From the NCBI GenBank assembly GCA_902796915.1, contig CADBQS010000086.1, positions 1 to 46,883 of the forward strand: a stretch of 46,883 bases of DNA, given 5' to 3'. The translations under genes were made by a program, and so were the position numbers. This DNA is from an uncultured Ruminococcus sp. (GTDB lineage: Bacteria > Bacillota > Clostridia > Oscillospirales > Acutalibacteraceae). Under the pieces are notes generated by a model. That model did not search any database. It was given only the letters and a program-made list of their open reading frames with translations, and was not told where the DNA came from. Of the stretch, positions 2-45,939 are shown in pieces (within the stretch, counting starts at the first letter, position 1; every line of letters starts with the position of its first letter).

Positions 2-1750
2 ATATATCTTTCAGCATTTTTATATGATTATGAATTTAATAGTGTAGAGAAAGTAAATAATAAAAAATCACCATATTACTATGCTTTGAAATTTAGAGAA
101 AAAATGTTATCGGTAACTAGATTTGTATTACCAGAAAGGCAAGCATCGGTTGCTAATGGAATACTTTTGGGAGATAAACATAGTATACCAGGAGATATAA
201 AAAAAGACTTTTTAGACGTTGAAGTATATCATTTATTAACGGTATCTGGAATACATGTTTCAATAGTATCTCAGATTTTAATATTTATATTAAAGAGATT
301 GAAAATAAATCAAAAAATATCTTCATTAATATCTATTGCTGTAATATTCGGTTTTATGGCTATTACGGGATTTACACCTTCAGTAATGAGAGCAGGAATA
401 ATGTCTATAATATACACTATCGGTGTTATTATAGGAAGAAATTCTGACTCTTTAAATTCGCTTGGATTTGCAGTACTAGTTTTATCCTTATTTAATCCCA
501 ACGTAGGTGGGGATATAAGGCTATGGCTTTCAGCATTATCCGTTTTAGGAATTATAACCTTTGCAAGACCAATAGAAATTAAATTGAAAGATTATTTTAG
601 TAAATATTTTAAAAGTAATAAATTATCTAATTACATATTAAAAAGTATATCAGTAACACTATCAGTAACGCTTGCATCAATGCCAGTAAATGTAATATTT
701 TTTAGGAATATATCATTAATATCACCAATTGCAAATATTTTGATGATGTTTCCTATATCTATTATGATATTTTGCACGATAGCTTTAGATATAGGTGTGA
801 TTTTGTGTTTACCAAAGATTATGATAATGCCATTTGGATTTATTTCGGGTGTAATTATAAATTATCTTACAATATGTGCCAGAGTGCTATCTAAGATAAA
901 TTTTGCAAGTATATCCATAGATTATCCATTTGTAATATTATGGGTTTCACTTACTCTCATATTAATTTCAATATGCGTATTATTTGGAAAAACTAGAAAA
1001 TATTCTAAGCTATTGACTTTTATTTCGGCTGATTTACTTCTTTTGGGTATAATATCTTATCAATTTACTATGCTAAACGTAACGAGAGTTAGCGTAGTAG
1101 ATTCAGGTAATGGCTCATCAGTTGTATTGAAGAAAAATGGACATACGGCAATAATATCCTGTGGAGGCGAATTGAAATGTAGTAATAGTGTTACTAATTA
1201 TTTGAGTAACACAAATACAAGAAACTTAGATTTTATATTAGTACCCTCTGAAGCAGAAGAGTGTAGTATGTTTTTTAGTGATATTGAAAGTCAGTATAAT
1301 GTGAATACAGTAATACTTCCTGTATCTACTACTCTTGGAAATAGCTTATCCGAAAGAAATGTTGCTGTAAAGGCAGTAAGATTTAAAGATAAAATAAATT
1401 CAAGTATATGGGGGAATGTTGAGACCTCAGTATTTAAATATGATGAATTTGTGTGGGTTTATTTAACTGTACAAGATGTAAGTCTATTAATATGTCCGAC
1501 TGGAGGAGATATAGATAAACTACCGGCTAAATATCGCAATTGTGATATTTTTATAGCCGGAGAATTACCAATGAATTATAATAGGCTAAATCCACTTAAT
1601 ACAGTAATATCTATGAATTCTCAATCGTGTAAAGTTAATGTTCCTAAATTATTGAAATATGGTATGAATACGTGCGCAACATCAGATTACGGTGCCGTAC
1701 ATATAGATATAAGTGATTCAAACCGTGTTTCAATAAGGAGGGAAATTTAA
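2..1750 (+). CDS. comEC: ComEC/Rec2-type DNA uptake channel, 5' end cut by window
   Basis: Polytopic membrane protein expected to form the channel for single-stranded DNA entry in natural transformation. The frame is open from base 2 with no stop before the first internal TTG/ATG near 86-104, so the true start lies outside the window. The Competence domain is recognisable by the HLLTVSGIHVS motif and by a run of about eight to nine hydrophobic segments up to about base 1090. The C-terminal part (VVDSGNGSSVVL, then IISCGG, then LDFILVPSEAEEC) follows the layout of the metallo-beta-lactamase domain of ComEC, but the usual HxHxDH metal motif is replaced by SEAEEC, so that domain looks catalytically dead. 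The gene precedes holA by 4 bases, and the holA ribosome site lies inside its last codons, as in many Clostridia. Identity is firm; nuclease function is doubtful. Confidence 0.88.
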   Translation: MYLSAFLYDYEFNSVEKVNNKKSPYYYALKFREKMLSVTRFVLPERQASVANGILLGDKHSIPGDIKKDFLDVEVYHLLTVSGIHVSIVSQILIFILKRLKINQKISSLISIAVIFGFMAITGFTPSVMRAGIMSIIYTIGVIIGRNSDSLNSLGFAVLVLSLFNPNVGGDIRLWLSALSVLGIITFARPIEIKLKDYFSKYFKSNKLSNYILKSISVTLSVTLASMPVNVIFFRNISLISPIANILMMFPISIMIFCTIALDIGVILCLPKIMIMPFGFISGVIINYLTICARVLSKINFASISIDYPFVILWVSLTLILISICVLFGKTRKYSKLLTFISADLLLLGIISYQFTMLNVTRVSVVDSGNGSSVVLKKNGHTAIISCGGELKCSNSVTNYLSNTNTRNLDFILVPSEAEECSMFFSDIESQYNVNTVILPVSTTLGNSLSERNVAVKAVRFKDKINSSIWGNVETSVFKYDEFVWVYLTVQDVSLLICPTGGDIDKLPAKYRNCDIFIAGELPMNYNRLNPLNTVISMNSQSCKVNVPKLLKYGMNTCATSDYGAVHIDISDSNRVSIRREI

Positions 1751-1754
1751 GGCT

Positions 1755-2804
1755 ATGCCTAAAATTACAGAATCGGATTTAAAAAAACAAATAAAGAATA
1801 ATAATTTAAGCAATTTTTACTTAATATATGGTAGCGAAAAATTTTTGATAAATTACTATGAAAAATTATTGGTAGAAAGTATAGTTGAAAAAAAACAAAG
1901 TAGTTTTAATTATAATTTATTTGATAAAGATGATATAGATATTAATCTATTAAAGACATGTATAGAAACATTTCCTATAAATTCTGATAAAAAATGCGTA
2001 TTAATAAAAAATCTTAATTTAGATGGAATGAATGCAAAGCAAATAACAGATATATGTGAAATAATTACAGACATACCAGATACATGTACGTTGCTAATAA
2101 TCCAAACAACAATTGAAGTAAACGAGAAGAAATCAAGCAAATGGAAAAAGTTCATTACTCATGTGTCTAAATTTGGTAACATTATAGAAATAAATCAAAA
2201 GACGCAAACATCATTAGAAAAACAAATTATTTCTTGGGCTAAAAAAAGAGATAAAATTTTATCTTCAGAAAATGCAAGCCGCATATTAAGTATGTGTGGT
2301 AAAAATTTAAATGATTTAAAAAATGAGATAGAAAAATTATGTGCGTTAGAAAGCGAGAGCGAAATTAAGTTAAGTACGATAGATAATATAGTTACAAAAA
2401 ATCTAGAATCAAACGTATTTGAACTTTGTAAATTATTAATTGCAGGTGATATAGCCAAAGCTTATGAATGCTTAGGCGTATTATTTTTTCAAAGAGAAGA
2501 GCCGATTATGATATTATCTGCAATTGCAAGTAATTATATTGATATGTATAGAGTAAAAGTGGCAATAGAAAGTGGACAATCTCCAACAGCAGTTTCAAGT
2601 ATTTTTGATTATAAAGGTAAGGACTTTAAAATTAAAAATGCTGAAAGAAATTTACGTTATATGTCATTAAATCAAATAAGACAGAGCATATATCTTTTGT
2701 TGGAAACAGATGTGAAATTAAAAAGCAGTAGAGTAGACGCAAGAATAATATTAGAAGAAATGATTGTAAAATTGATAAAAATAAGGAGAAATGATATTAA
2801 TTGA
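1755..2804 (+). CDS. holA: DNA polymerase III delta subunit (clamp loader)
   Basis: 349-residue HolA family protein, the delta subunit that opens the beta sliding clamp inside the clamp-loader complex. It starts with the family-typical segment that sets up the first Rossmann-like domain (FYLIYGSEKFLI, residues about 18-29), followed by the AAA+-like lid (SRILSMCGKNLNDLKNEIEKL, shortened here, about residues 175-195) and the helical collar domain at the C terminus. Delta subunits normally lack a working Walker A site, and none is seen here. Translation is probably coupled to comEC: AAGGAGGG at 1735-1742 precedes the ATG. The last codon and stop overlap the TTG start of the next gene. Length is normal for the family. 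Confidence 0.9.
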   Translation: MPKITESDLKKQIKNNNLSNFYLIYGSEKFLINYYEKLLVESIVEKKQSSFNYNLFDKDDIDINLLKTCIETFPINSDKKCVLIKNLNLDGMNAKQITDICEIITDIPDTCTLLIIQTTIEVNEKKSSKWKKFITHVSKFGNIIEINQKTQTSLEKQIISWAKKRDKILSSENASRILSMCGKNLNDLKNEIEKLCALESESEIKLSTIDNIVTKNLESNVFELCKLLIAGDIAKAYECLGVLFFQREEPIMILSAIASNYIDMYRVKVAIESGQSPTAVSSIFDYKGKDFKIKNAERNLRYMSLNQIRQSIYLLLETDVKLKSSRVDARIILEEMIVKLIKIRRNDIN

Positions 2805-3406
2805 TAAAAATAAGAGAGGCAATAATAGTAGAGGGGAAGTACGATAAAATAAAGTTATCTCAGATAGTTGATACTCTTATTATACAAACTAATGGATTTG
2901 GAATATTTAAAGATAATAAAAGGTTAGAAATGATAAGAAATATAGCTAAAACAAGGGGAATAATAGTTTTTACAGATAGTGATGCGGCTGGATTTGTGAT
3001 TAGAAATTATATACGCAGTTCCATAAAAGATGGTATTGTAAAGCATGCATACATACCTGAGATATACGGAAAAGAAAAACGAAAAATTACTTGCTCTAAG
3101 GAAGGAAAATTAGGTGTTGAAGGGATAGATAGTAAAATTATTTTGGAAATTATAAATAATTCAACTAAAGATAATGAAAAAAATGATAATATAGATTTTT
3201 ACAATTTTAGTAAATTAGATTTATATAATGCAAAATTGATCGGACATGAATCTAGCAAAATAAATAGAGAAAAATTGCTAAAAGAACTAAATTTACCACA
3301 ATACATATCTTCATCTGAGTTATTAAGAATAATAAATTCATTGGAGATAACGTTAGAAAATGATATAATATTAGAAAAATTTGATATAATAAAAAAATCC
3401 TCTTAA
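2801..3406 (+). CDS. rnmV: Toprim ribonuclease M5-like protein (5S rRNA maturation)
   Basis: 201-residue protein with an N-terminal Toprim fold: catalytic Glu in VEGKYDK (about residue 11) and the DxD motif in FTDSDAAG (about residues 58-65). The segment IIQTNGFGIF and the TRGIIVFTD block match RNase M5, the enzyme that cuts precursor 5S rRNA in Firmicutes. The C-terminal half (KLGVEGIDSKIILEII and onward) corresponds to the DUF4093 extension of this family. The start is TTG at 2801, overlapping the holA stop by 4 bases; AAGGAG lies about 13 bases upstream. A strong hairpin overlaps its stop codon. It could be a paralogous Toprim protein, but context and motifs favour RNase M5. Confidence 0.82.
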   Translation: MIKIREAIIVEGKYDKIKLSQIVDTLIIQTNGFGIFKDNKRLEMIRNIAKTRGIIVFTDSDAAGFVIRNYIRSSIKDGIVKHAYIPEIYGKEKRKITCSKEGKLGVEGIDSKIILEIINNSTKDNEKNDNIDFYNFSKLDLYNAKLIGHESSKINREKLLKELNLPQYISSSELLRIINSLEITLENDIILEKFDIIKKSS

Positions 3407-3427
3407 ATGATTGTATAGAGGATTTTT
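3393..3427 (+). terminator. Rho-independent terminator after rnmV
   Basis: An 11-base-pair perfect stem AAAAATCCTCT / AGAGGATTTTT (3393-3403 with 3417-3427) with a 13-base loop. The stem ends in a T run and overlaps the TAA stop of rnmV. It ends the comEC-holA-rnmV transcript. Confidence 0.8.
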
Positions 3428-3463
3428 GCATTATATAAATTATATGTTTTTTAAATCTTATAT

Positions 3464-3565
3464 TTAATTTTTAAAATCATTGTAAGCTTTTTCAAAAATA
3501 TTTTTTCCGTTAAGATCCGTGATAGGTTTGCTCAATGGTCCTTCTTGTTCACGCCTAATCTGATA
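3464..3565 (-). other. Coding-like 33-codon extension behind the in-frame TGA of the Nif11-type peptide gene
   Basis: Directly after the TGA at 3566-3568, and in the same frame, there are 33 sense codons ending at TAA (3464-3466). The predicted residues begin YQIRREQEGPLSKPITDLNG and end KAYNDFKN, which looks like protein rather than AT-rich spacer. Either the gene was once about 139 codons long and has a nonsense mutation, or the TGA is partly read through. No element that would promote readthrough was recognised, and TGA is a normal stop elsewhere in the window. Confidence 0.5.
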
Positions 3566-3883
3566 TCATAGAGCTGCACTACCAACAACATCTGCCGTAG
3601 CACCTAAAGTTATGCCAAGAGTTTTGCCTAACTTACCCCAAAATCCTGAACCTCCAGAGACGGCATCAAGACTAGCTTCATCCAATTCACCTTTTTTTTC
3701 AGATTGACTATTCTTTTCTTTATACAACTTAACAGTTTCACGAAGCTTGTGAGCCTCATCTAAAGATAATTTTACACCGTGTTTTTCAGCAAATAACTGT
3801 ACGTTTTCATCAGTATCTACTTGTGCTAGAATGTTTGCAAATTCTTTATCTGTGGCTAATGACAATAATTTTTTTTCATTCAT
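3566..3883 (-). CDS. Nif11/NHLP-type precursor peptide with double-glycine leader
   Basis: 105-residue precursor of a secreted, ribosomally made peptide. Residues 1-78 form a long acidic/helical leader of the Nif11-like class (FAEKHGVKLSLDEAHKL near 31-47) ending in ELDEASLDAVSGG, the double-glycine cleavage site for a C39 peptidase. The remaining 27 residues start SGFWGKLGKTLGITLG and end VVGSAAL: small, Gly-rich, amphipathic, with Ser and Thr but no Cys, so no lanthionine or sactionine rings are expected. The ribosome site AGGAGGTG sits 6-7 bases before ATG, behind a TTGACA-17-TATACT promoter. The likely exporter is encoded at 41-46 kb. A coding-like tail follows the TGA in frame, so this may be a shortened product. 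The activity of the mature peptide is unknown. Confidence 0.8.
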   Translation of the reverse strand: MNEKKLLSLATDKEFANILAQVDTDENVQLFAEKHGVKLSLDEAHKLRETVKLYKEKNSQSEKKGELDEASLDAVSGGSGFWGKLGKTLGITLGATADVVGSAAL

Positions 3884-3912
3884 AAAAACACCTCCTATTG
3901 ATTAATGATTTT

Positions 3913-3941
3913 AGTATACATTATATTTCTGCTGATGTCAA
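3913..3941 (-). promoter_or_regulatory. Consensus sigma-A promoter of the Nif11-type peptide gene
   Basis: On the minus strand, TTGACA (3936-3941) is separated by exactly 17 bases from TATACT (3913-3918). The spacing to the start codon at 3883 gives a 5' leader of roughly 20-25 bases that contains AGGAGGTG. One mismatch in twelve positions makes this one of the best promoters in the window. Confidence 0.8.
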
Positions 3942-8114: not shown

Positions 8115-8401
8115 AAAAGAGGATTTAGAAAAAATTTGTTTAAATAAAGAAAATATAAATAAAATCTTACAAGCAAAAACAAAAGATGATATTAAAGAAT
8201 TGTTTGTTGAAAAGGGTATTGAGATTACAGATGAAAGATTCAGAGTTTTAAAGGATTCCTATTCAAAGGTTGTTGAGGAAGTAAAGAATTCTAGCCAAGA
8301 GGAATTGAAGAAGATTAGTGGAGAGCAATAAAATAAAAAGAGAAGGAATGAGGGGAGGCTTTGTGGGTGTGGTCTTCGGTGTAATTGATTCTGGTGTTTA
8401 A
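8110..8401 (+). pseudogene. Decayed Nif11-type leader peptide gene fused to the tsaD 3' end
   Basis: From 8110 an open frame encodes a Nif11-like leader: KKEDLEKICLNKENINKILQ, then IKELFVEKGIEITDERF, then EELKKISGEQ and TAA at 8329-8331. There is no start codon; a TAG in the same frame lies inside the last tsaD codons at 8107-8109. After the stop, the +1 frame continues with SNKIKREGMRGGFVGVVFG and IDSGV before TAA at 8399-8401, resembling a Gly/Val-rich core after a GG site. One missing or extra base near 8320-8330 would join leader and core. The gene has therefore lost its promoter, its start and its reading frame. Read as a relic of a third NHLP-type precursor; which core sequence was ancestral is inferred. 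Confidence 0.68.
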
Positions 8402-8419
8402 GAATAATTTTAAGTATGA

Positions 8420-8444
8420 AAACCACGCATTGAATGCGTGGTTT
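8420..8444 (+). terminator. GC-rich hairpin after tsaD and the peptide relic
   Basis: Perfect 11-base-pair stem AAACCACGCAT / ATGCGTGGTTT with a TGA loop. The following AAAAGTTTTAAT gives only a weak T tract. It is placed to end the polA-rimI-tsaD transcript. The sequence resembles a second hairpin at 46813-46835, and such AAACCACGC palindromes are also seen at ends of IS200/IS605-type elements, so it could be a leftover transposon end. Confidence 0.6.
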
Positions 8445-8484: not shown

Positions 8485-8727
8485 TTATAAATCAGAATCT
8501 GTAGTTTTAATTACAAATGGTCCTTTATGTCCGACAGGTAACTTACCTAAGATAGGTTTTTTTACAATTTTAGGTAATTCATTTATTTTTGCTTCAAAGC
8601 TTTTTGCCTGTTCTTCAGTATCAAACTCTTTTGCATACTGGGGCACACAAATAAATTTTCCGTCCTTGGTTTCTATAATTTTACCACCTGATAGATTTTT
8701 TAAATTTTCATCATTAACTTTTTCCAT
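8485..8727 (-). CDS. Secreted peptide precursor with short double-glycine leader
   Basis: 80-residue protein whose first 15 residues, MEKVNDENLKNLSGG, match the short bacteriocin-type leader ending in a GG cleavage site for C39 peptidase ABC exporters. The 65-residue mature part starts KIIETKDGKFICVP, has one cysteine, a charged helical segment (KEFDTEEQAKSFEAKI) and a Pro/Gly-rich tail with KLPVGHKGPFVIKTTDSDL. A single Cys excludes an internal disulfide. The product is larger and more polar than typical class II bacteriocins, so a signalling or surface role is equally possible. AAGGAG lies 9 bases before ATG, behind a perfect TTGACA-17-TATAAT promoter. The relevant exporter candidate is at 41-46 kb. 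Confidence 0.75.
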   Translation of the reverse strand: MEKVNDENLKNLSGGKIIETKDGKFICVPQYAKEFDTEEQAKSFEAKINELPKIVKKPILGKLPVGHKGPFVIKTTDSDL

Positions 8728-34810: not shown

Positions 34811-35032
34811 TCAATTACAGTGTGAATCCATCATTCCCACAAGCACAGGTGCAGCTAACTTCCCCATAAATGTTGTCAAAGCATCCATAGAAATACCTAG
34901 AAAACCACATAATCCTTCTGTTCCCTTAAATAATAAACCACCACCTAACACAATGCCTCCAGTTAATGTGACAAATCTTACTATTGTAGCCATAGATTGT
35001 GAAAAAGCTTTTACTATTCTTGATTCTCCCAT
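34811..35032 (-). CDS. Small hydrophobic Gly-rich protein, unknown function
   Basis: 73-residue protein not recognised as a family. It has a short polar N terminus (MGESRIVKAFSQSM), a Gly-rich hydrophobic segment (FVTLTGGIVLGGGLLF, about residues 20-35), a middle containing one Cys (GLCGFLGISMDALTTF) and a second hydrophobic stretch (KLAAPVLVGMM), ending DSHCN. Two membrane passes or an amphipathic pore-like peptide are possible. The gene looks real: TTTACA-17-TATAAT promoter, GGGAG about 10 bases before ATG, and a terminator immediately after the stop. There is no double-glycine leader, so it would not be a substrate of the exporter at 41-46 kb unless leaderless. A bacteriocin-like or small membrane regulator role is speculative. 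Confidence 0.7.
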   Translation of the reverse strand: MGESRIVKAFSQSMATIVRFVTLTGGIVLGGGLLFKGTEGLCGFLGISMDALTTFMGKLAAPVLVGMMDSHCN

Positions 35033-41021: not shown

Positions 41022-41588
41022 ATGGCAGAAAATGAACTTTTTAGAAAAACATCTTTGGAGAGGGTGTCATCTCCAGAACAGCTAAATGAGTACATAAAAA
41101 TTACAAACCCTAGTTTAATAGCAATATTAGTAGCGATATTTGCTATACTATCGGCGTGTGGATTTTGGATATTTTCAGGAAATATACCTAAATACGTAGA
41201 GTTAAATGGAGTTGCAGTTACTAAGAATGTAGGCGAGCAGGATATTTATTGTTATGTACCTATAACAACAGCCAAAAGACTTCAAGAGGGAATGAATGTA
41301 CAAATTTCAACAGAATATGCACCTAGGGAAGAGTATGGATTTAGAAATGGTACAATAAAAAATGTGGGAGAAGAAATCATTTCTTTGGATTACATAGAGG
41401 AAAATTTTGAAAATCCTAATATAGTTGTACCAGTTTTACCTAATGGAAATTATGTTGAAGTAGTTATAAGTCAGGGAGATTGGTCAAGTGAAAAGGGCGA
41501 AAGCGTAGAAATAAGCGATGGTTCTGTTTGTTCTTTATCTGTAGTTGTAGGAGAGCAGAAGCCTTATAAACTTATATTTAATTTTTAG
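41022..41588 (+). CDS. NHLM/NHLP-system secretion adaptor (short HlyD-like)
   Basis: 188-residue membrane-fusion-type protein. Its N terminus LFRKTSLERVSSPEQLNEYI is characteristic of the NHLP bacteriocin secretion protein family, followed by one transmembrane segment (LIAILVAIFAILSACGFWIF, about residues 32-51) and a beta-rich extracytoplasmic part (YCYVPITTAKRLQEGMNVQI; GNYVEVVIS). It is much shorter than full HlyD-like members near 400 residues: no long coiled-coil hairpin is seen. In a single-membrane cell this may be enough to bridge transporter and wall. First gene of the exporter operon; GAAAGGAA precedes its ATG. Confidence 0.88.
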   Translation: MAENELFRKTSLERVSSPEQLNEYIKITNPSLIAILVAIFAILSACGFWIFSGNIPKYVELNGVAVTKNVGEQDIYCYVPITTAKRLQEGMNVQISTEYAPREEYGFRNGTIKNVGEEIISLDYIEENFENPNIVVPVLPNGNYVEVVISQGDWSSEKGESVEISDGSVCSLSVVVGEQKPYKLIFNF

Positions 41589-41604
41589 TAGGGGGTGTTG
41601 AGCT

Positions 41605-43761
41605 GTGTTTAGGCATAAGTTTGCTAAAAAAGTGCCTGTTATCATGCAAATGGAAGCATTAGAATGTGGGGCGGCCTGCCTTTGCATGATAGCGGCATAT
41701 TATAAAAAGTGGATACCGCTAACTCAAGTTAGAGCGGATTGCGGAGTTTCAAGGGATGGCAGTGTAGCCAAGAATATCTTGAATGCTGGAAGGGCATATG
41801 GCTTTAAAGCTAGTGGATATAAATTAGAACCTTCAGACTTAAATGAACTACCATTACCGGCAATAATACATTGGGATTTTAATCACTTTGTAGTACTTTG
41901 TGGAGTAGATTTAAAAAAAGGAAAATTTGTAATTAATGACCCTGCAAGAGGTAGAGTAACCGTAACGATGGACGAGTTCGATAGGTCATTTACAGGAATA
42001 GCCTTAACCTTTGAGCCAACTGAAGACTTTAAGCCTGAAGGTAAGCCTAAAAGTGTTATTCAGTTTGCTAAAAAATGCTTAAAAGGAGCGATGTTCCCAT
42101 TTGTTTTAGCGGTTTTATTAAGTATTATCATGGCCCTTATAGGAATGATGTCTCCTGTTTCTGGCAAGATATTTATAGATAATATATTATCAGGAAAGAA
42201 CCCAGAATGGTTATTACCTTTCATAGGGATTATGTTGTTAATCCTATTGCTACAAACCTTAGTTGGAATAATAAAATCAATTTATTGGCTTAAAATAGAA
42301 GGTAAGTTTGCCGTTACGGCGAGTGCAGAGTTTATGTGGCACGTGTTGAGATTACCTATTGATTTCTTTTCTCAAAGGTATATCGGAGATATAGCTGGAC
42401 GTCAATCATCAAATGCTGATATAGCTTTAGCGTTAATACAGAAAATTGCTCCGATATTTGTTAACGTAGCATCAATAGTATTTTATTTATTCATAATGAT
42501 AAATTACAGCTGGCAACTTACTTTGATAGGCTTAATTACAACTATATTAAATATGTTTTTAGTACAATACACGTCAAAGAAGATGTTGAACTACCAAAGA
42601 GCATCAATTCCTAATGACGGTAAGTTAGCAAGTGTTACATATTCAGGAATAGAAATGATAGAAACAATAAAATCTACAGGTGCAGAGAACGGATATTTTG
42701 AACGTTGGGCAGGATATTATGCTAAGCAAAATAATGCAGCGACAAAGATGTCCAAGTTTACACTTTATTTTAGTGCTATACCTCAATTGTTACAGCAATT
42801 AGCATCAATAGCTTTAACTGTAAGCGGCGTATACATGATAATGAGTGGAAGCTTTACTATTGGTATGCTTACAGCCTTTAATGGATTTTTATCTTTATTT
42901 TTATCTCCAATTTCAGATTTAATAAGTGTATATAGTGATTTTGTTCAAATGAAATGTAGTATGGAGAGAGTAGAAGATGTAATGGAGTATCCTACTGATG
43001 TTGAATATAAGCAGGATGCAGCATTAAAAGAAGATAATAAATTGACAGGAAATGTAGAACTTAAAAATATAACATTCGGTTATAGTAAATTAGCACAACC
43101 GTTAATAAAAGATTTCTCATTAAAATTAAAACCGGGTTCTTCAGTGGCATTAGTAGGAGGAAGCGGAAGCGGAAAATCTACGATTGCAAAGTTAATAATG
43201 GGCCTTTACGATGTTTGGGATGGAGAAATATTATTTGATGGTAAAAAAATAAAGGATATAGACAGTTATAAATTCCATAGTTCAATATCTATGGTAGACC
43301 AAGACAAAATTATGTTTAATGATACAATAAAAAATAATATAAGAATGTGGGATGAATCCATAGAGGATTTCGCAGTAATGCTAGCAGCTAGAGATGCTGA
43401 TATACATGAAGCAATCATACAAAGACCAGATGGTTATAATCATGTTATGAGAGAGGGAGGAAAAGACTTCTCTGGTGGACAGTGTCAAAGAATGGAAATA
43501 GCAAGAGTATTAGCTCAGGAACCATCTATAATTATTCTTGATGAAGCAACATCTGCATTAGATGCGAAAACAGAAAATATTGTAATGAATAATATAAGAA
43601 AGTTAGGATGTACATGTATAGTAGTTGCACATAGGCTTTCTACTATAAGAGATTGCGATGAAATAATAGTACTAGATAGAGGACAAGTTGTTGAAAGAGG
43701 TACACATGATGAATTAATGAAAAACGGTGGAAGATATATGCAACTTGTTACAACAGAGTAG
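41605..43761 (+). CDS. NHLM peptidase-containing ABC exporter (ABC1)
   Basis: 718-residue peptide-exporting ABC transporter. The C39 peptidase domain (about residues 8-135) carries the catalytic Cys in ALECGAACLC (about residue 21), His in HWDFNHFVVLCG (about 96) and Asp in INDPARG (about 112); it would cleave GG leaders. Six membrane segments follow, then the ATPase with Walker A GGSGSGKST (about 517), signature SGGQCQRMEIARVL (about 622), Walker B IIILDEATSALD (about 642) and the H-loop VVAHRLST. GTG start. All catalytic residues are intact, so this is the probable processor of the GG precursors at 3.6 and 8.5 kb. No competing C39 exporter is in the window. Confidence 0.93.
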   Translation: MFRHKFAKKVPVIMQMEALECGAACLCMIAAYYKKWIPLTQVRADCGVSRDGSVAKNILNAGRAYGFKASGYKLEPSDLNELPLPAIIHWDFNHFVVLCGVDLKKGKFVINDPARGRVTVTMDEFDRSFTGIALTFEPTEDFKPEGKPKSVIQFAKKCLKGAMFPFVLAVLLSIIMALIGMMSPVSGKIFIDNILSGKNPEWLLPFIGIMLLILLLQTLVGIIKSIYWLKIEGKFAVTASAEFMWHVLRLPIDFFSQRYIGDIAGRQSSNADIALALIQKIAPIFVNVASIVFYLFIMINYSWQLTLIGLITTILNMFLVQYTSKKMLNYQRASIPNDGKLASVTYSGIEMIETIKSTGAENGYFERWAGYYAKQNNAATKMSKFTLYFSAIPQLLQQLASIALTVSGVYMIMSGSFTIGMLTAFNGFLSLFLSPISDLISVYSDFVQMKCSMERVEDVMEYPTDVEYKQDAALKEDNKLTGNVELKNITFGYSKLAQPLIKDFSLKLKPGSSVALVGGSGSGKSTIAKLIMGLYDVWDGEILFDGKKIKDIDSYKFHSSISMVDQDKIMFNDTIKNNIRMWDESIEDFAVMLAARDADIHEAIIQRPDGYNHVMREGGKDFSGGQCQRMEIARVLAQEPSIIILDEATSALDAKTENIVMNNIRKLGCTCIVVAHRLSTIRDCDEIIVLDRGQVVERGTHDELMKNGGRYMQLVTTE

Positions 43762-43776
43762 TTGGAGGTGAAAATT

Positions 43777-45939
43777 ATGAATAAAAGTTTTTTTGAGAGC
43801 CAAATAAATAAACGTAGAAGATGCGATGATGAAATGTATCAAGACGCTTTCTCGGATTTGCTTTCAATATTAGGTATAGAAGGTAAAAGGGCAATAAGAG
43901 AAGCAAAAAATGCCGTACAACAAATACTTAAATATTTAGGTAAAGAAATACCGGAAATACCAGAAAACGTTACGAAAATTGATGAACAATTAGAATACAT
44001 GCTAAGACCATCAGGAACAATGAGAAGAAGAGTAGAACTTTTGGGACAGTGGTGGAAAGATAGTACGGGCTGTCTTTTAGCAAGTACAAAAGACGGGCAA
44101 GTAATTGCTCTTATACCGGGAAAATGGTCTGGATATCAATACAAAGATAAAGATGGAAATACAGTAAAAATTAATAAAGAAACAGCAAAAAATATAAACG
44201 TAGATGCGTTTTGTTTTTATAAATCATTTCCATTAAAGAAGTTAAAAATTAGAGATTTACTTATATTTATGTTTAATAGTCTTTCTAGGATGGATATAGT
44301 ATTTGTATTGTGTGCATTTGCTTTAATACAGTTAATAGGAATGTTAAGTCCTTATACCACACACATCATATATGATATACTTATACCATCTGGGACAACT
44401 TCATTATTAGGTCCAGTAGCAGCATTATTAATTGGTGTTACAATAGGAAGTACGTTTTTGGGTATAACTAGAAGTATAATTTTAAATAGGTTTCAAAGTA
44501 AACTAAATTTATCAGTAAATAGTGCAATAATGATACGTATGTTTAGTTTACCAACAACGTTCTTTAAGGATTATAACGCAGGAGAGCTGGCAAATAAGAT
44601 GGGTTATATAGCATCACTTTGCCAAATGCTTTCAAATACAGTTGTTACAACTGGATTATCAACATTTTTCTCTTTGGGATATCTTTTCCAGATGAATAAG
44701 TATGCACCAACCTTAGTTGTACCAGGAATGGCAGTAATATTAGTGACAATAATTTTCCTAGTTGTTAGTACGCTCATGCAACAACAAATATATAAAAAGC
44801 GTATGGTTATTTCACCAAAGCTAGGTTCATTAGTATATTCACTTTTCGGTGGAATACAGAAAATAAAGGTTGCAGGAGCGGAAAAGAGAGCTTTCGCTAA
44901 GTGGTCTGAGTTATATTCAGAATCTGAAAAATTAACATATTCTCCTCCAATAATGATAAGATTATATGGTGTAATAAGTACTATAATATCATCGTTAGGA
45001 GTAATAGTGATTTATTATTTTGCAGCTACAACAAATGTATCGATCGCAGATTATTCAGCATTTAATGGAGCTTATGGAGCAATAACATCAGCACTATTAT
45101 CATTAAGCTCTGTTGCTTTAAGCTTAGCGAATCTTGGACCAATATTAGATATGATAAAACCTATAATGGAAGCTGAACCAGAAAATTCTGAAGGAAGAAA
45201 GATTGCAACATCACTTTCTGGAGATATAGAGGTAAATAATATAACATTTAGGTATGGAGATGGCCCTGTAATACTAGACGATATAAGCCTTAAAATAAAA
45301 AAAGGAGAATACGTTGCAATAGTAGGTAAAACAGGATGCGGAAAATCTACGCTTATGAGATTATTGTTAGGTTTTGAAACTCCTGAAAAAGGTGGAATAT
45401 ATTACGGTGGTAGAGATTTAAATACATTAGATTTAAGAAGCGTAAGGCAGAGAATAGGCGTAGTAATGCAAAATGGTTCTCTATTTCCGGGGGATATATT
45501 CTCCAATATAATAGTAACTGCACCTTGGAAAACTATGGGTGATGCATGGGAAGCAGCTAGACTTGCAGGTATTGAGCAGGATATACAAGCTATGCCAATG
45601 GGAATGCACACTATAATAGCCGAAGGCAGTGGAGGAATCTCCGGGGGACAAAAACAACGTTTAATGATAGCTAGAGCGGTAATAGGAAGACCGTCAATAT
45701 TGTTTTTTGATGAAGCAACATCTGCTCTGGATAATATTACGCAAAGCCATGTGGCTGAAAGTGTAGCATCATTAAAATGTACAAGGTTAGTAATAGCCCA
45801 TAGGCTATCGACTATAAAGCACTGTGACAGAATATTAGTGTTAGATAAAGGTAAAATAGTTGAGGAAGGGAACTATGAGAGTTTAATGGATAAAAAAGGA
45901 TATTTCTATGACTTAGCTAAGAGGCAGGTTGCTGAATAA
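43777..45939 (+). CDS. NHLM second ABC transporter (ABC2, no peptidase)
   Basis: 720 residues from ATG 43777, 6 bases after GGAGGTG; an earlier TTG overlaps that site. The N-terminal 165 residues replace the peptidase with the non-catalytic region of NHLM ABC2 proteins (GQWWKDSTGCLLASTKDGQ). Membrane segments run from about 165 to 460, then the ATPase: Walker A VGKTGCGKST (about 517), signature ISGGQKQRLMIARAV (about 621), Walker B ILFFDEATSALD (about 640) and IAHRLST. It is the expected heterodimer partner of ABC1. Last gene of the operon, followed by a hairpin. Confidence 0.93.
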   Translation: MNKSFFESQINKRRRCDDEMYQDAFSDLLSILGIEGKRAIREAKNAVQQILKYLGKEIPEIPENVTKIDEQLEYMLRPSGTMRRRVELLGQWWKDSTGCLLASTKDGQVIALIPGKWSGYQYKDKDGNTVKINKETAKNINVDAFCFYKSFPLKKLKIRDLLIFMFNSLSRMDIVFVLCAFALIQLIGMLSPYTTHIIYDILIPSGTTSLLGPVAALLIGVTIGSTFLGITRSIILNRFQSKLNLSVNSAIMIRMFSLPTTFFKDYNAGELANKMGYIASLCQMLSNTVVTTGLSTFFSLGYLFQMNKYAPTLVVPGMAVILVTIIFLVVSTLMQQQIYKKRMVISPKLGSLVYSLFGGIQKIKVAGAEKRAFAKWSELYSESEKLTYSPPIMIRLYGVISTIISSLGVIVIYYFAATTNVSIADYSAFNGAYGAITSALLSLSSVALSLANLGPILDMIKPIMEAEPENSEGRKIATSLSGDIEVNNITFRYGDGPVILDDISLKIKKGEYVAIVGKTGCGKSTLMRLLLGFETPEKGGIYYGGRDLNTLDLRSVRQRIGVVMQNGSLFPGDIFSNIIVTAPWKTMGDAWEAARLAGIEQDIQAMPMGMHTIIAEGSGGISGGQKQRLMIARAVIGRPSILFFDEATSALDNITQSHVAESVASLKCTRLVIAHRLSTIKHCDRILVLDKGKIVEEGNYESLMDKKGYFYDLAKRQVAE

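Follow-up and report, generated by a model that had tools for sequence, protein, structure and literature searches.

The peptide gene at 3464–3883 is probably a double-glycine-leader precursor that was recently truncated by a nonsense change and that belongs to a family evolving by birth and death. The window, meaning the whole stretch of DNA analysed here, is a single 46.9-kb contig of a draft genome (1.40 Mb, 145 contigs, 94.5% complete, 1.79% contamination), and this genome is the sole representative of its genus in the collection searched. The reading draws on expression signals that are intact by sequence, the coding character of the DNA beyond the interrupting stop, the standard decoding of TGA, the presence of other broken paralogues and an export cassette. 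Composition, core length and transcript layout suggest that the change went from a long form to a short one.

Layout of the Peptide Gene

Translation confirmed the coordinates and counts of the original prediction, in which the frame meets a TGA and then continues for 33 sense codons to a TAA (Table 1). The joined frame comprises 139 codons, from 3883 to 3464 on the minus strand. With the GG ending at residue 78, readthrough of the TGA would give a core of 61 residues, compared with 27 in the short form.

The signals around the gene appear to frame the long form. The best-scoring promoter site is located just upstream of the ribosome-binding site; it is proposed on its consensus match, as the scan returned about the same number of sites as in shuffled DNA. 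At the other end, a two-way hairpin is common to the precursor and a convergent Toprim-like gene. It is absent from the list of a simple terminator scan, and the fold of 3390–3470 reaches −11 kcal/mol (z = −2.84). The hairpin starts 36 nt past the TAA, so the long frame fills the predicted transcript, whereas the short frame would leave approximately 140 nt.

Table 1. Coordinates and supporting evidence for the features described in the window.
Feature	Position	Strand	Evidence or description
Terminator-like hairpin, two-way	3393..3427	.	11 bp, A/T flanks; inverted repeat I1 and fold
TAA, presumed original stop	3464..3466	-	Translation
33-codon coding-like tail, YQIRREQEGPLSKPITDLNGKNIFEKAYNDFKN	3467..3565	-	Codon log-odds, GC by codon position
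In-frame TGA	3566..3568	-	Translation
Precursor ORF as it stands	3566..3883	-	105 aa; leader of 78 residues with LDAVSGG at its end, then a core of 27, SGFWGKLGKTLGITLGATADVVGSAAL; translation
Ribosome-binding site AGGAGG	3891..3896	-	7 nt before ATG; read from sequence
Probable promoter TTGACA-17-TATACT	3913..3941	-	11/12 consensus matches
Decayed second precursor with leader, immediately behind tsaD	8116..8440	+	Leader profile E = 2.2e-10; three-frame translation
Small protein, short double-glycine leader (MEKVNDENLKNLSGG), intact	8485..8727	-	ORF
HlyD-like protein	41022..41588	+	TIGR03794, 86.9 bits, below cut-off 156.2; 188 aa only
C39-peptidase ABC transporter	41605..43761	+	TIGR03796, 910.8 bits, above cut-off
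Second ABC transporter	43762..45939	+	TIGR03797, 734 bits, above cut-off

Coding Character of the Tail

It had been proposed that an AT-rich spacer would rarely stay open and look polar, as the tail does. The openness of the tail by itself is weak evidence: a run of 33 sense triplets is expected by chance with P = 0.049 under the intergenic composition and P = 0.046 in shuffles of the tail. The gene-like codon composition is stronger evidence. When genes were compared with spacers, the tail scored a log-odds of +0.229 bits per codon, which is the 23rd percentile among in-frame 33-codon windows of the genes in the window. Scores this high occurred in 0.07% of intergenic windows and in 3–6% of genic windows read in a wrong frame, and the remaining five frames of the tail DNA all fell below zero. 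The GC content of the tail also fits genes rather than spacers. It is 31%, distributed over the codon positions as 42/27/24% (41/33/20% in the window genes). Intergenic DNA has 23%, and the 57 nt that follow the TAA have 16%. Among the 39 window genes, no other in-frame extension of at least 33 codons was found, save those running into a neighbouring gene or ORF.

The tail aligned to the paralogues no better than shuffled tails did, with a single exception, a 5-residue extension of the alignment to one paralogue (p = 0.023 among 20 trials). Orthologs of the joined protein were sought widely. Only generic leader matches, or none, were obtained in 198 relatives and the singleton genus, in 398 family genomes (approximately 600 genome look-ups for the relatives and the family, with some genomes common to both), in 85,000 species genomes and in viral contigs, phages and plasmids. 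The one hit to core plus tail among the species genomes, in a Chitinophagaceae contig, was intergenic and was rejected as a seed-driven chance match. In the 11 relatives inspected, whose polA N-terminus is 56–65% identical, other genes or nothing were found upstream of polA in place of the precursor. None of these searches yielded an ortholog in which the site is a sense codon, and the ancestral long form is thus deduced from composition rather than comparison.

A Large Leader Family with Broken Members

A leader profile was made from the precursor at 3566–3883 and eight relatives, and it matches 3650–3883 at E = 5.7e-24. A search with this profile located approximately 28 leader-bearing loci in the genome, mostly alone on separate contigs; of 398 genomes sampled from the family, 23 had matches as well, most of these being small. 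The paralogue cores are mutually unlike and are Gly-rich or polar. In the 22 intact paralogues, they range from 31 to 108 residues, with at least 44 where the leader is long. At 61 residues, the long core is inside this range, and the short core of 27 is shorter than all 22.

The "Nif11-type" label that had been given to the gene turned out to be loose. TIGR03798 scores 11.8 bits on the precursor (E = 0.22), below the curated cut-off of 32.3, and gave weak matches on six of 13 paralogues (best E = 5.2e-4). On the other side, a leader-end motif of the ELSxEELxxVxGG type, ELDEASLDAVSGG, stands before the core, and the genome contains a large family of paralogues whose cores vary. Since the leader is under the cut-off, "Nif11-like" is used here for how the leader works and not as a tested membership.

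At least four of the approximately 28 loci besides 3464–3883 are broken, by frameshifts, stops or loss of the 5′ end. One of them lies in the same window, 4.4 kb from the precursor. It is the copy behind tsaD, which is without a start codon; its leader ends ISGEQ-stop, and core-like GGFVGVVFGVIDSGV follows in another frame. Elsewhere in the genome, the leader at C79:23668 holds both a TAG and a TAA, and the locus at C6:28036–28175 has a frameshift within the leader. At C57:2834, leader and core are out of frame with the ATG that follows the ribosome site, and a TAG interrupts a CxxC motif that the neighbouring gene keeps. This locus is the middle one of three tandem short double-glycine precursors on contig C57 (~2600–3440), two of which have CxxC zinc-ribbon-like cores. 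In-frame stops occur in relatives' copies as well (TAG in G258, TAA in G208). Because the other loci carry heavier lesions, the single nonsense change at 3566–3568 is the mildest of the series. The multiple unrelated lesions in several of them are unexplained by one base error and thus point to real decay in the leader family.

Several further small or leader-bearing frames were observed. A frame of 424 aa at C64:42041–42253 (minus strand) carries the leader and is far beyond peptide-precursor length. The small intact protein at 8485–8727 matches no family of Pfam or NCBIfam. Between genes at 34811–35032 (minus strand), there is a 73-aa Gly-rich hydrophobic ORF, without a Pfam match, that may encode a further small secreted or membrane peptide.

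Export Cassette

The three genes at 41022–45939 make up an NHLM-type export cassette. Such systems were tied to NHLP and Nif11-type precursors by Haft and co-workers (PMC2887384). The HlyD-like protein is possibly a natural short form. On contig C115, the frame at 1351–3111 encodes a protein of ~543 aa in which a double-glycine-leader-like N-terminus is joined to an AAA ATPase domain (E = 1.1e-5 to PF00004; Torsin is matched weakly). This protein may be a large cargo of the peptide exporter.

Decoding of TGA

TGA is an ordinary stop codon in the window, as had been stated: the 39 genes end with TAA (23), TAG (11) or TGA (5). RF2 is present in the genome at 517 bits, over its curated cut-off. 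In this genome (94.5% complete), no SelB over the cut-off was found (best 184.9 vs. 242.25); the best match lies in a frame of 405 aa and is therefore probably EF-Tu. The best tRNA-Sec match likewise stayed below its cut-off (37.2 vs. 47). The tRNA-Trp anticodon is CCA, and none of the tRNAs that ARAGORN could read carries UCA; this leaves aside a few matches that resemble tRNAs but are weak or aberrant. Directly after the TGA, no SECIS-like hairpin was found, and 3505–3571 folds like its shuffles (z = +0.46). Three ways of reading the codon were rejected on these data: a code in which TGA means Trp (table 4/25), by tRNA-Trp, RF2 and the genes ending with TGA; a selenoprotein, by SelB, tRNA-Sec and the hairpin search; and a UGA suppressor tRNA, by the anticodons. 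With RF2 present and without SelB, tRNA-Sec, a UCA tRNA or a SECIS-like hairpin, readthrough is unsupported beyond background leakage.

A canonical-looking tRNA with the anticodon CUA was observed within a tRNA cluster on contig C21 (776–851, minus strand). It was also rejected as a TGA suppressor because it would read TAG. The contig is 3.3 kb long and carries homing-endonuclease and phage-like genes, and TAG ends 11 of the 39 window genes; the tRNA is probably phage-borne.

Proposed History and Alternative Explanations

The original gene would have had 139 codons, encoding a leader of 78 residues and a core of 61. One nonsense change would then have ended translation at codon 106. Because the promoter, the ribosome site and the leader appear intact, the 105-residue precursor is probably still made. 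Cleavage after the GG and export by the NHLM-type C39 ABC transporter could still yield a putative 27-residue peptide. The tail would be what is left of the old core, no longer translated, and the presumably recent date of the mutation would explain why it can still be recognised. Two possibilities were first put forward for this gene. The best-supported reading is that one base change removed the C-terminal half and left a core of 27 residues; readthrough giving two peptide forms found no support.

An intact 139-codon precursor with a sense codon at the site would also explain the data, if the TGA were an assembly or consensus error or came from mixed strains. The assembly is a draft of the metagenome type, its contig number, completeness and contamination allow for such errors, and a single base separates the two states while the rest of the frame is intact. 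This explanation is nevertheless unlikely, as a comparable interruption was found in none of the 39 window genes analysed and several other precursors have lesions that one wrong base does not account for. A gene that had its stop at the TGA from the beginning, with a tail that is open by chance or derives from unrelated old coding sequence, is rather improbable. Openness at the 5% level and a tail without a homologue agree with a native short gene. Published core lengths for Nif11-type and NHLP precursors in general are 23 and 27 (PMC2887384); a core of 27 residues is thus typical of them and not unusual by itself. Against this stand the tail's resemblance to genes in GC and in codon use, the latter rarely reached by intergenic windows, the placement of the terminator and the longer cores of 22 out of 22 intact paralogues in the genome.

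It is very improbable that the TGA is read through by suppression or recoding as a designed way of making both a short and a long peptide. Of the bacterial stop codons, TGA is the leakiest, and the tail is intact and coding-like. However, RF2 exceeds its cut-off, SelB and tRNA-Sec do not, and neither a suppressing anticodon nor a downstream hairpin was detected; the broken paralogues show TAG, TAA and frameshifts, with no consistent TGA. A deliberately used leaky TGA, giving mostly the short core and occasionally a long, polar-tailed one as a bacteriocin-like two-form product, is the most doubtful idea of all. If readthrough were the right explanation, a single precursor gene would give two products in a new way, but the data point in the other direction.

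A truncated precursor is fairly ordinary biology. The background is mildly interesting: the genome is rich in export-peptide genes, with approximately 28 leader-bearing ones scattered over it, of which approximately five are broken, each differently. With its different degrees of decay, this set is a modest example of birth-and-death evolution among precursors of exported peptides.

Comparison with Known Systems

The closest comparison is with the Nif11-type precursors (TIGR03798, N11P; Haft, Basu and Mitchell 2010, PMC2887384). They share with the present gene a leader of ~70–80 residues ending in a motif like the one found here, a variable core, membership of a large paralogous family and a C39 ABC export cassette in the genome. 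The differences are the sub-threshold TIGR03798 score, the mostly longer paralogue cores (44–108) and the position of the gene, which does not adjoin the export cassette. No modification enzyme for a Nif11-type RiPP core was recognised among the window genes. In the NHLP/NHLM system (TIGR03793, TIGR03794, TIGR03796, TIGR03797), the likeness lies in the transporters at 41605–45939, which exceed the cut-offs of TIGR03796 and TIGR03797. In contrast, the HlyD-like partner is short and below the cut-off of TIGR03794, and the leader is without a match to the NHLP leader model TIGR03793, which was matched by one of 13 family members only (E = 0.053). Class IIb bacteriocins (lactococcin G-alpha/enterocin 1071A, NF038035) resemble the precursor in that a short, hydrophobic core rich in Gly comes after a double-glycine site, and the match to NF038035 (E = 0.004–0.005) spans the leader end and the first core residues. 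However, this match reaches 16.9–17.2 bits against a cut-off of 37 and stops near residue 90, and the leader of the precursor described here is much longer.
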